Shown in pieces: positions 23,226-26,394 of a stretch of 64,000 nt of DNA. The position numbers were made by a program, and so were the translations under genes. How positions within the stretch are numbered: the first letter of the stretch is position 1; the number at the start of each line of letters is the position of its first letter. The notes under the pieces were generated by a model. That model made no database searches. It had not been told where the DNA came from and was given only the letters and a program-made list of their open reading frames with translations. Origin of the DNA: Bacteroidota bacterium (GTDB taxonomy: Bacteria; Bacteroidota; Bacteroidia; 2-12-FULL-35-15); NCBI GenBank assembly GCA_005772895.1, contig SXIH01000036.1, positions 62,001-126,000 on the forward strand, read 5' to 3'.

Positions 23226-23247
23226 TAGTTCTACCAAATTGAATACT

Positions 23248-24309
23248 ATGGAAAAAGTAGTAAGTAAAACAAAAAAAGCAACACCAGTGGCAGAAACAAA
23301 ATCAACCACCAAGTTCAGCAAAGAAACATACATTAAATGGTATGAATCGATGTTGCTGATGCGAAAGTTTGAAGAAAAAACCGGACAATTATATATTCAA
23401 CAAAAAATCCGTGGTTTTTGTCATTTGTATATCGGACAAGAAGCATTGGTAGCAGGTTCAGAATCGGTATTACGCAGAGAAGATAGAGTTATTACTGCTT
23501 ACCGCGATCACGCTCATCCAATCGGAAGAGGGTTACATCCAAAATATATTATGGCAGAAATGATGGCAAAAGTTACCGGTTGCTCAAAAGGTAAAGGTGG
23601 CTCTATGCATATTTTTTCTAAAGAATTTAATTTCTTTGGCGGTCATGGAATTGTGGGAGGACAAATTCCTTTAGGAGCAGGTATCGCTTTCGCAGATAAA
23701 TACAATGGAAATGATTTGGTAACGCTTTGTTACATGGGTGATGGAGCAGTTCGTCAAGGTGCATTGCACGAAGCTTTCAACATGGCGATGCTTTGGAAAT
23801 TACCGGTGATTTTTATTATCGAAAATAACAATTATGCAATGGGAACTTCAGTTGAACGTACTTCCAATGTGCATGATTTATGGAAATTAGGTTTGTCGTA
23901 CGAAATGCCATCTTATCCTGTTGACGGTATGACTTGTGAAGCAGTTCACGAAGCAATAGAAGAAGCAGTTGCGCGTGCAAGAAAAGGTGATGGTCCCACT
24001 TTATTGGAAATGAAAACCTACCGTTACAAAGGTCACTCCATGAGTGATGCTCAAAGCTACCGTACAAAAGATGAAGTGAAAGAATACCAAGCACAAGATC
24101 CAATTGAAAAAGTTTTAGCGACTATCAGAAAAAATAATTGGATGAGTGAAACTGATATTGAAGCTGCAGAGCAAAAAGTAGAAGATATTGTTGCGGAGTC
24201 GGTGAAGTTTGCAGAAGAGTCTCCGTTCCCTACACCGGATGAGTTGTTCAAAGATGTTTATACACAGGATGATTATCCGTATATCGATGATGAAAACAAA
24301 ATCGAATAA
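23248..24309 (+). CDS. pdhA: Pyruvate dehydrogenase E1 component, alpha subunit
   Basis: This is the thiamine-diphosphate-dependent subunit that, with E1 beta, decarboxylates pyruvate and passes the acetyl group to lipoyl E2. Key motifs are RGFCHLYIGQEA near 54-65, YRDHAHPIGRG, GGSMHIF and the ThDP motif GDGAVRQGALHEAFNMA (about 158-174) ending in ENNNYAMGTS. The phosphorylation-loop-like YRYKGHSMSDAQSYR is near 253-267. ATG 23248 is used rather than a TTG at 23239. The 353-residue length is normal with a short Lys-rich N-terminal tail. No E1-beta gene is in the window. E2 follows but is separated by an inserted four-helix-bundle gene. Confidence 0.94.
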   Translation: MEKVVSKTKKATPVAETKSTTKFSKETYIKWYESMLLMRKFEEKTGQLYIQQKIRGFCHLYIGQEALVAGSESVLRREDRVITAYRDHAHPIGRGLHPKYIMAEMMAKVTGCSKGKGGSMHIFSKEFNFFGGHGIVGGQIPLGAGIAFADKYNGNDLVTLCYMGDGAVRQGALHEAFNMAMLWKLPVIFIIENNNYAMGTSVERTSNVHDLWKLGLSYEMPSYPVDGMTCEAVHEAIEEAVARARKGDGPTLLEMKTYRYKGHSMSDAQSYRTKDEVKEYQAQDPIEKVLATIRKNNWMSETDIEAAEQKVEDIVAESVKFAEESPFPTPDELFKDVYTQDDYPYIDDENKIE

Positions 24310-24312
24310 GGA

Positions 24313-24343
24313 AATTATAAATGATGAATTATAAATTATAAAT
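24313..24343 (+). repeat. Left 31-bp inverted repeat flanking the four-helix-bundle gene
   Basis: This 31-bp AT-only-plus-G sequence matches the reverse complement of 24709-24739 at 29 of 31 positions. It begins 3 bp after the pdhA stop and ends 11 bp before the enclosed ATG. Confidence 0.85.
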
Positions 24344-24354
24344 GAAGGAAATAT

Positions 24355-24705
24355 ATGGGGAAGGATAATCCAATTGTTACAAAATCATTTGATTTTTCAT
24401 TGTCAACAATAAAATTATACAAACATTTAACAGAAAATAAAGAATACATTTTATCAAAACAATTGCTTAGGTCTGGAACAAGTATTGGGGCGAATATTGA
24501 GGAAGCAATCGGATCAATTTCTAAAAAAGAGTTCACCGCCAAAATGTGCATCTCTTTGAAAGAAGCTAGAGAATCAAAATATTGGTTGCGACTTTTAGAT
24601 AAAAGTCAAATGGTAAACTATAACTACAACAAAGAATTAAAAGAAATAGATGAGATTGTAAATATTTTAACTGCAATTGTGAAAACATCACAAAACAACA
24701 ATTAA
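24355..24705 (+). CDS. Four-helix-bundle protein (23S rRNA IVP / S23 family)
   Basis: This 116-residue, almost all-helical protein belongs to the family first seen as intervening-sequence proteins inside 23S rRNA genes (TIGR02436 type) and related to the Avd accessory protein of diversity-generating retroelements. The signature is clear: FDFSLSTIKLYKHL, the LLRSGTSIGANIEEAIGS turn near 41-58, FTAKMCISLKEARESKYWLRLL near 64-85 and a last helix ending LTAIVKTS. A GAAGGA ribosome site lies 5 bp before the ATG. It splits the pdhA-E2 gene pair and is bounded tightly by a 31-bp inverted repeat, so it looks like an inserted cassette. The molecular role of free-standing members is not established. 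Confidence 0.9.
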   Translation: MGKDNPIVTKSFDFSLSTIKLYKHLTENKEYILSKQLLRSGTSIGANIEEAIGSISKKEFTAKMCISLKEARESKYWLRLLDKSQMVNYNYNKELKEIDEIVNILTAIVKTSQNNN

Positions 24706-24708
24706 ATA

Positions 24709-24739
24709 ATTTATAATTCATAATTCATAATTTATAATT
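24709..24739 (-). repeat. Right 31-bp inverted repeat flanking the four-helix-bundle gene
   Basis: This is the reverse complement of 24313-24343 with two mismatches. It starts 3 bp after the enclosed stop and ends 11 bp before the E2 ATG. Confidence 0.85.
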
Positions 24740-24750
24740 TTTAAAAGAGT

Positions 24751-26394
24751 ATGGCTGAAGTAGTGAGAATGCCCAAATTAAGTGATACCATGACAGATGG
24801 TGTTGTAGCGAAGTGGCATAAAAAAGTAGGCGACAAAGTAAAATCAGGCGAATTGCTTGCTGATATCGAAACAGATAAAGCAACAATGGAATTTGAATCT
24901 TTTCAAACAGGTGTGTTGTTACACATTGGAGTTCAAGAAGGAAAAGGTGCGCCTGTAGAATCGATACTTGCGATTTTAGGAAAAGAAGGAGAAGACATAA
25001 CCGCTTTATTAGCAGCTGAGGCTGGCAATGGAGTGGAGAGTAAAGCGGTAGTTCAAAGTTCAAAGTTAGAAAGTTCAAAAGTTGATGCTCCTGTTGCTGA
25101 GAAGAAAATGCCTGTTGCTGAACTGAAAATTCCGGATACAGTTCAGATCGTTCGTATGCCGCAGTTGAGTGATACTATGACAGAAGGTGTTGTAGCGAAG
25201 TGGCATAAAAAAGTTGGAGATTCGGTGAAGTCGGGTGAATTGCTTGCTGATATTGAAACGGATAAAGCAACAATGGAATTTGAATCTTTCCAAAGTGGAG
25301 TGATTTTATATATTGGTGTGGAGCAAGGAAAAAGAGCTCCTGTTGATTCGATATTAGCGATTTTAGGAAAAGGCGGAGAAGATGTGACTGCGATTATAGA
25401 AGCTGAGAAAAATAAGTCGAGTGTCGGAAGTTCCAAGTCGGAAGTAAGTGCAAAGTCGGATGTCGGAAGTCAGAAGTCGGAAGTAAAAAAGGAAGAAGTT
25501 AAAAGTCAAAAGTCAGAAGTCAAAATTGCTTCAACTAGTAACGGTGACAGATTAAAAATTTCTCCTCTTGCAAAAAAATTAGCGGCTGATAAAGGCATAA
25601 GTGTTACTGCATTGAAAGGTAGTGGTGATAATGGCCGTATCATCAAACGCGATATTGATAATTTCCAATCGAATGGTGCTGTGTCAACTTTTGTTGGTGT
25701 TGAAAGTTTTACTGAAGAACCGGTTTCGCAAATGCGCAAAGTCATTGCAAAACGTTTGGGTGAAAGTAAATTCTCAGCTCCGCATTTCTATTTAACAATG
25801 GAAATTGATATGGACGAAGCAATAAAAGCACGCGAAGCAATAAATACGGTTGCAGGATTAAAAATTTCGTTTAACGATATTGTTATTAAGGCTGTTGCTT
25901 CTAGTTTGCGTAAACATCCAAAAGTAAATTCATCCTGGTTAGGCGATAAAATCCGTTACAACAATCACATTCATATTGGTGTTGCTATTGCTGTTGATGA
26001 AGGATTGTTGGTTCCGGTAGTTCGTTTTGCCGATGGTAAAACATTGACACAAATTGGAACTGAAGTCCGCAATTACGCTGTGAAAGCACGTGAGAAAAAA
26101 TTACAACCAAGCGATTGGGAAGGAAATACATTTACCATTTCTAATTTAGGAATGTTTGGAATAGATGAGTTTACTGCAATCATAAATACTCCTGATTCGT
26201 GTATTCTTGCTGTTGGGGGAATCAAACAAGTTCCTGTTGTGAAAAACGGGCAAATTGTTCCGGGGAATGTTATGAAAGTTACTTTATCCTGCGATCACCG
26301 TACAGTTGATGGTGCAGTAGGGTCTGCATTTTTACAAACACTAAAACACAATTTGGAAAATCCGGTATTGATGTTGGGCGCGAGTGCGATATAA
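24751..26394 (+). CDS. pdhC: Pyruvate dehydrogenase E2, dihydrolipoamide acetyltransferase
   Basis: E2 is the core of the pyruvate dehydrogenase complex and transfers acetyl from lipoamide to CoA. Two lipoyl domains lie at about residues 2-80 and 132-210, each with the lipoylated lysine in IETDKATMEF; their DNA is nearly the same, so they arose by internal duplication. A peripheral-subunit-binding domain (ISPLAKKLAADKGI...GRIIKRDI) is at about 268-305, and the catalytic domain runs from about 325 to the end, with the active-site CDHRTVDG near residue 513. The interdomain linkers at about 100-112 and 221-255 are encoded by short tandem repeats instead of the usual Ala-Pro linkers. It pairs with pdhA despite the inserted gene. 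Confidence 0.95.
   Translation: MAEVVRMPKLSDTMTDGVVAKWHKKVGDKVKSGELLADIETDKATMEFESFQTGVLLHIGVQEGKGAPVESILAILGKEGEDITALLAAEAGNGVESKAVVQSSKLESSKVDAPVAEKKMPVAELKIPDTVQIVRMPQLSDTMTEGVVAKWHKKVGDSVKSGELLADIETDKATMEFESFQSGVILYIGVEQGKRAPVDSILAILGKGGEDVTAIIEAEKNKSSVGSSKSEVSAKSDVGSQKSEVKKEEVKSQKSEVKIASTSNGDRLKISPLAKKLAADKGISVTALKGSGDNGRIIKRDIDNFQSNGAVSTFVGVESFTEEPVSQMRKVIAKRLGESKFSAPHFYLTMEIDMDEAIKAREAINTVAGLKISFNDIVIKAVASSLRKHPKVNSSWLGDKIRYNNHIHIGVAIAVDEGLLVPVVRFADGKTLTQIGTEVRNYAVKAREKKLQPSDWEGNTFTISNLGMFGIDEFTAIINTPDSCILAVGGIKQVPVVKNGQIVPGNVMKVTLSCDHRTVDGAVGSAFLQTLKHNLENPVLMLGASAI
25050..25080 (+). repeat. AGTTCAA-type tandem repeat within E2 coding sequence
   Basis: Imperfect 7-8 bp units based on AGTTCAA encode the first linker (VQSSKLESSK). 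Similar microsatellites are usually intergenic in Bacteroidota. Confidence 0.6.
25413..25525 (+). repeat. AGTCGGA-type tandem repeat within E2 coding sequence
   Basis: About a dozen imperfect units of the AGTCGGA/AGTCAAA kind encode the Ser-Lys-Ser-Glu-Val rich linker before the subunit-binding domain. Confidence 0.7.

Follow-up and report, generated by a model that had tools for sequence, protein, structure and literature searches.

We know of no function for genes of the S23/IVP family and of no nuclease among their products. Cyanobacterial STRRs are known repeats akin to TAACTGA heptads. RAYTs are Y1 HUH transposases with palindromic REPs, and a RAYT gene lies between inverted copies of the repeat, which also occurs as gene-less pairs and solos. 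REPIN/RAYT systems (excerpts of PMC3116915) serve here as a comparison. According to passages of PMC4990558, the Coxiella 23S rRNA intervening sequence (IVS) carries GACAGAT heptamers upstream of its S23p open reading frame (ORF) and is removed by RNase III, and IVSs with an S23p ORF are called selfish, with unclear function and origin. TAACTGA direct repeats in Beggiatoaceae, cyanobacteria, and Bacteroidetes are described with no mechanism evident in excerpts of PMC4679880, where a binding protein was sought and a TAACTGA-binding protein was suggested as a possible mobile element; in the main text of that paper, the terms "four helix", "S23", and "intervening" are all absent. S23 is also homologous to Avd of diversity-generating retroelements (passages of PMC10053308). 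In the titles and abstract openings searched, we did not find a link between S23 and heptad arrays; among passages of PMC4679880, PMC4990558, PMC5524665, PMC4748335, PMC2408588, and PMC10053308, those of PMC4990558 mention heptamers next to an S23p ORF.

Here, we analyzed an S23 gene within a 64,000-nucleotide stretch (the window) of a Bacteroidota genome, G000 (3.54 Mb, 71 contigs, 93% complete). Like the 23S IVSs of Coxiella and Leptospira, this locus carries a member of the same protein family in an ORF enclosed by inverted repeats. Unlike them, the cassette lies between protein genes, in the pdhA–E2 spacer outside any 23S rRNA gene, has heptad arrays on both sides, and belongs to a family of S23 cassettes with many units and gene-less copies. 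TAACTGA itself builds the arms of the S23 cassettes found in Microcystis, a Nostocales, Calothrix, Plectonema, and Fischerella. As in REPIN/RAYT systems, S23 is placed between inverted repeats, and the arm repeat also turns up at other places without the gene, in inverted pairs or alone; in contrast to a RAYT, S23 is a small helical bundle, the cassette ends are tandem heptads, and the gene between the arms is S23, with no RAYT transposase gene there. Unlike diversity-generating retroelements, G000 has no reverse transcriptase (RVT_1) match.

An S23 gene between inverted heptad arrays at the pdh locus

The preliminary description of this DNA had proposed an S23/IVP gene enclosed by a 31-bp inverted repeat matching at 29 of 31 positions, and the repeat was recovered at 24313–24343 and 24709–24739 with 29/31 positions complementary (p < 0.01 against 200 dinucleotide shuffles); repeat detection extends the arms to 32 bp (94%). 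The distances given there were likewise reproduced, the left arm beginning 3 bp after the pdhA stop at 24309 and the right arm ending 11 bp before the E2 ATG at 24751. Its remark that the repeats consist of smaller units and could in part be low-complexity was right and proved the key to the layout: each arm repeats a 7-bp unit, AATTATA/AATTATG, in tandem.

Table 1 Features of the pdh-site cassette and its neighbours in the window
Feature	Position	Strand	Basis
Left (U) arm, AATTATA-type heptad array	24312..24343	+	Repeat detection; dispersed 31-mer copies
S23/IVP four-helix-bundle gene, 116 aa	24355..24705	+	TIGR02436, PF05635, relative 2RLD
Right (D) arm, inverted heptad array	24709..24740	-	94% complementary to left arm
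Upstream gene: pdhA (E1 alpha), frame open	23239..24309	+	TIGR03182 above cut-off; start from ORF listing
Downstream gene: pyruvate dehydrogenase E2, frame open	24751..26394	+	TIGR01349 above cut-off
AGTTCAA heptad array within E2 coding sequence	25050..25071	+	Array detection
Two heptad arrays within E2 coding sequence, AGTCGGA and AAGTCAA types	25455..25525	+	25455–25478 and 25494–25525

The gene product scored 99.7 bits against TIGR02436 (cut-off 24) and 86.7 bits against PF05635 (cut-off 33.8). Sequence search (E up to 0.01) returned 2RLD as the sole solved relative, a single entry with five chains. ORFs of at least 60 aa between or overlapping the arms comprise S23 and one antisense ORF of 71 aa without a Pfam match; no transposase was found between the arms, in support of the earlier suggestion that the element has none of its own. 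We detected no Rfam match at 24200–24850 (E up to 1). The arms pair in the predicted RNA fold of the cassette (z = −2.57; 0/100 shuffles as stable).

Five arrays of period 7 were found in the window, namely the two cassette arms and three within the E2 gene, with one array each at periods 8, 9, and 10 and none at periods 5, 6, and 11. Across 464 kb of G000, the excess of period 7 is modest: after removal of low-complexity arrays there are 21 at this period, and periods 8, 9, 10, 11, and 12 have 11, 14, 5, 9, and 14 (6 at period 5 and 21 at period 6 when low-complexity arrays were kept). Arrays within the E2 coding sequence occur in 4/13 genomes checked, including G000; as in G000, those of G016, G008, and G032 (L021, L024, and L025) lie within an open frame, and the units differ, the G008 unit being of the TAGACAA arm type.

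Presence and absence at the pdh and Microcystis sites

We inspected the pdh spacer in 20 of the 36 genus genomes. Including G000, seven carry S23 between the two pdh genes, and the remaining 13 lack it, their spacers measuring 19–106 bp, which supports the earlier proposal that gene and repeats form one cassette; presence or absence at fixed sites and the location in operon spacers are both visible in the sequences. The objection named earlier, that relatives might all carry the gene here without repeats, does not hold: in the genus, the repeats accompany the gene at this site, with G028 having the left arm only, beside a short S23 protein of 94 aa. Filled and empty versions of the pdh and Microcystis sites, compared by eye, contained no recognizable target-site duplication. 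As a separate observation, most of the S23-free pdhA–E2 spacer of G010 (L018) is a solo array built on a different unit, AATCCTA.

Orthologues at the pdh site have dN/dS of 0.05–0.10 in three pairs with dS below 1, and of 0.04–0.18 over the 18 of 28 pairs that allowed its computation, most of which are saturated; the protein at this site is under purifying selection. In G040, which belongs to another family, this spacer holds an S23 that is 60% identical and has arms of another unit. Given the presence/absence pattern, the G040 relative, and the low dN/dS, the pdh-site cassette is an old resident kept by selection, and a vertical history with repeated loss is favoured over repeated gain at one site. 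The preliminary description is partly supported: its cassette behaviour stood, with the correction that the pdh copy is not a fresh insertion, as shown by the orthologue dN/dS and by the differently armed relative in the same spacer of another family.

That the cassette is a mobile unit, as previously suggested, agrees with the dispersal of the 31-mer repeat in G000 and with a Microcystis cassette found at two sites. L311–L313 share one locus, and L314, from M. wesenbergii, shares the cassette alone (476–491 bp, 93–94%) within different flanks. M. wesenbergii (G455) and M. novacekii (G469) hold copies at both places, the L311 place being divided between contigs in G469. At the L314 site, the cassette is full in two genomes, reduced to both arms without S23 in two, including M. 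viridis, and replaced by a solo TAACTGA array in one and by another heptad family in one. The L311 site of M. viridis (L349) bears stacked arrays of three heptad families and no gene; the remaining four genomes in which we read this allele have the full cassette.

Heptad arms across the S23 family

The sequences examined contain this architecture in several phyla, together with a link between protein similarity and unit, and gene-less pairs and solo arrays of the same unit. All seven TIGR02436 genes of G000 lie, by eye, between inverted short-unit arrays whose units differ from gene to gene (AATTATA, AGATGTGC, TAGACAA, AATTGAAA, GTTATAA, AGTTTTG, and GAGATTTG types). Against dinucleotide shuffles, inverted arms were significant at p < 0.01 in 6/7 genes and at p < 0.05 in 7/7, and direct-orientation flanks in 0/7.

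For 87 S23 genes from this genome, the genus, and the phylum, we then scored the arms by locally aligning the 160 bp before each gene to the reverse-complemented 160 bp after it. These derive from 93 ORF hits in 86 loci, six hits having been dropped as duplicates or for short flanks; the loci are best-scoring matches, with G035 and G016 oversampled. Inverted flanks averaged 21.3, direct flanks 13.6, mismatched pairs 11.9, and a set of 47 control genes from the same loci 10.8; scores of at least 20 were reached by 48/87, 8/87, 27/870, and 0/47, respectively. A further 31 genes, those of 30 loci plus L257, came from genomes all chosen for TAACTGA, 25 of them from outside Bacteroidota and 22 cyanobacterial. 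There, 24/31 inverted and 9/31 direct flanks, 0/17 control genes, and 142/930 mismatched pairs scored at least 20, the last because several genes share one unit.

Among these 118 genes, 77 had inverted and 18 had direct arms at p < 0.01, counts that include many orthologues and, like the analysis throughout, ignore kinship. By set, inverted arms reached p < 0.01 in 6/7 genes of G000, 38/52 of the genus, 11/28 of the phylum, and 22/31 of the TAACTGA-chosen genes; the phylum sample was the weakest (17/28 at 0.05). Arms at p < 0.01 were absent from 41/118 genes, and those of L294 (Bryobacteraceae) and L321 (Pirellulaceae) fell below this significance. Insertion of S23 into a single pre-existing array predicts direct flanks and is disfavoured, since significant ones are few (18/118). 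When periods 4 to 12 were tested on the 114 of 154 arms that are 22–70 nt long, period 7 was best in 95/114 and period 8 in 15/114, compared with 6/114 and 14/114 in shuffled arms; the median arm has 4.1 units. S23 genes were found in 289/392 sampled genomes of the phylum. The ~3.1-Mb genome G035 carries 19, the most among the 36 genus genomes searched.

The unit also follows the protein. Among pairs of S23 proteins that are at least 60% identical and whose fetched flanks have no gene in common, 39 of 44 had alike arms (score of at least 16); these pairs at different loci are non-independent and often cyanobacterial. Below 60% identity, the proportion was 3–7%. Within genomes, a gene's own arm was usually the best match, and the arm of another S23 was equal or better for 1/7, 4/16, and 4/8 genes; arms are thus not fully private to their own S23. 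The earlier link between repeat and gene family stood in that arrays follow the S23 family, and did not in tying it to a single 31-bp sequence, the heptad unit differing between S23 clades.

Reading heptads from the outside inwards gave a consensus for 108/154 arms, 24 further arms being better described as 8-mers. In counts where the paired arms of one cassette and orthologues are non-independent, AG was present in 82/108 arms, where composition predicts 54.0, and CT in 6/108. CAG occurred in 31 consensus heptads (5.5 expected) versus one with CTG, AGA in 33 (20.8 expected) versus none with TCT, and AGT in 43 (21.1 expected) versus two with ACT; TAG showed no excess (24, expected 21.5). TRAP is a ring that binds repeated triplets, and, by analogy, a five-subunit ring reading AG-containing units on one strand would fit this polarity.

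Gene-less copies were next counted with the left-arm 31-mer, allowing up to three mismatches. G000 contains 16 matches, two being the cassette arms; the backwards pattern gave none in 36 genomes. The seven genomes with a pdh-site S23 hold 16, 16, 7, 29, 7, 0, and 2 matches, a mean of 11.0 versus 1.1 in the other 29 (Mann–Whitney p = 0.0007, or 0.0015 without cassette arms; kinship ignored). The exceptions are G001, with a pdh-site S23 and zero 31-mers, and G003, with 16 and no pdh-site S23. Among the gene-less arrays of G000, 6 of 21 tested had a nearby inverted partner scoring above all 30 shuffles.

A scan for three exact TAACTGA units listed at least 110 stretches; of the 110 listed, all of which were examined, one (Nostocales) contains S23, between inverted TAACTGA arrays. 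TAACTGA-type arms also flank the best-scoring S23 of four Microcystis, Calothrix parasitica, Plectonema, and Fischerella muscicola, which brings TAACTGA arms around S23 to eight cyanobacterial genomes, all chosen for TAACTGA. S23 genes were found in 38/41 TAACTGA genomes, and no S23 match in M. viridis, which has many arrays, a Parabeggiatoa, and Chromatium okenii. S23 cassettes may explain scattered seven-letter repeats for which no partner was known.

Genomic placement and candidate mechanisms

With simple ORF-based gene calls, neighbour orientation was scored for 108/118 S23 genes. Taking S23 as plus, the neighbours were plus/plus in 91 cases, plus/minus in 10, minus/minus in 7, and divergent in none; among control gene pairs, 103/134 were co-directional. 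The median distance between an outer arm end and the adjacent ORF was −4 bp on one side and −1 bp on the other (n = 75), with 54/75 and 49/75 within 20 bp. We dropped the idea, raised by how close 31-mers lie to ORF ends, that 31-mers target start or stop codons, because most 31-mer sites sit between co-directional genes, where spacers are short. Between co-directional genes, gene-less 31-mers were 13 sense and 13 antisense when the five arms of pdh-site S23 cassettes were excluded (17 and 14 when included), and TAACTGA arrays were 36 sense and 16 antisense. We infer that insertion would be largely orientation-neutral, with the gene kept where read-through expresses S23; the TAACTGA skew partly contradicts this.

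Our preferred reading, which we regard as probable, is that the pdh cassette belongs to a large class of minimal mobile elements, S23/IVP genes within inverted, clade-specific arrays of 7-bp (or 8-bp) units. S23, whose solved relative is a five-chain assembly, would bind AG-containing heptads of its own type, perhaps with each subunit taking about one, and the bound arms would act as ends for DNA-level insertion or recombination by other factors. S23 would be expressed through operon read-through and kept mainly in the sense orientation, and gene-less pairs and solo arrays could be non-autonomous copies or relics. A broader version, that S23/IVP rings read a heptad code, each clade recognizing its own AG-containing 7-bp unit at roughly one unit per subunit, and form with their arrays a new transposase- and reverse transcriptase-free class of mobile element unifying STRRs, TAACTGA repeats, and the 23S IVS heptamers, is put forward more tentatively, at somewhat less than even chances.

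Several features would suit a domesticated RNA regulator, in which the S23 assembly binds arrays in mRNA leaders and spacers and controls the translation or decay of many genes, its own included, with array spread secondary. Operon-spacer location, sense orientation, low dN/dS, the strand polarity of the units, and the sense skew of TAACTGA arrays all point this way; however, regulation alone leaves unexplained the inverted downstream arm, the like cassettes at different sites, the arrays within coding sequence, and the even strand distribution of gene-less 31-mers, and we consider it unlikely. Less likely still is an element resembling the 23S IVS, harmless on insertion since its arms pair in the transcript and RNase III cuts the S23 segment out. 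The Coxiella IVS, with inverted repeats, heptamers, and RNase III excision (passages of PMC4990558), is the precedent, and the predicted pairing of the pdh arms means that they may have some role in RNA; against it, each heptad differs by one base between the two arms of the Microcystis cassette, which means that perfect pairing has not been maintained.

The idea of a retroelement that relies on a reverse transcriptase supplied in trans and uses S23 in the manner of Avd draws on the homology of PF05635 proteins to Avd (passages of PMC10053308) and on RVT_1 matches in 17/36 genus genomes. The other 19 have no such match, among them G000 (93% complete), G035 with its 19 S23 genes, and G032 with 29 31-mers; provision in trans is unlikely across the genus, and we judge this route very improbable overall. 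The least credible account is that unrelated AT-rich microsatellites flank the gene by chance. It would suit the AT-rich AATTATA unit, the arrays that exist without S23, and the modest period-7 excess in 464 kb of G000; against it stand the inverted orientation, the many units that are not AT-only, the association of arms with protein similarity, and the control genes. A ubiquitous AT microsatellite unlinked to the family had been named earlier as a possible objection; the arrays instead follow the S23 family, and the family-wide arm statistics disfavour a simple AT microsatellite.

For arrays published without a mechanism, the S23–heptad link would supply a candidate protein whose ligand is predicted clade by clade. 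If true, the known mobile elements would be joined by one that needs no transposase of its own, fits operon spacers, and leaves arrays in coding sequence as well.

A further unit was also seen: G007, G014, G034, and G002 carry TTGTTAG-type arrays, with 40–102 overlapping pattern matches per genome. Reversed-pattern matches occur in several genomes, with 41 in G014 and 9 in G002.
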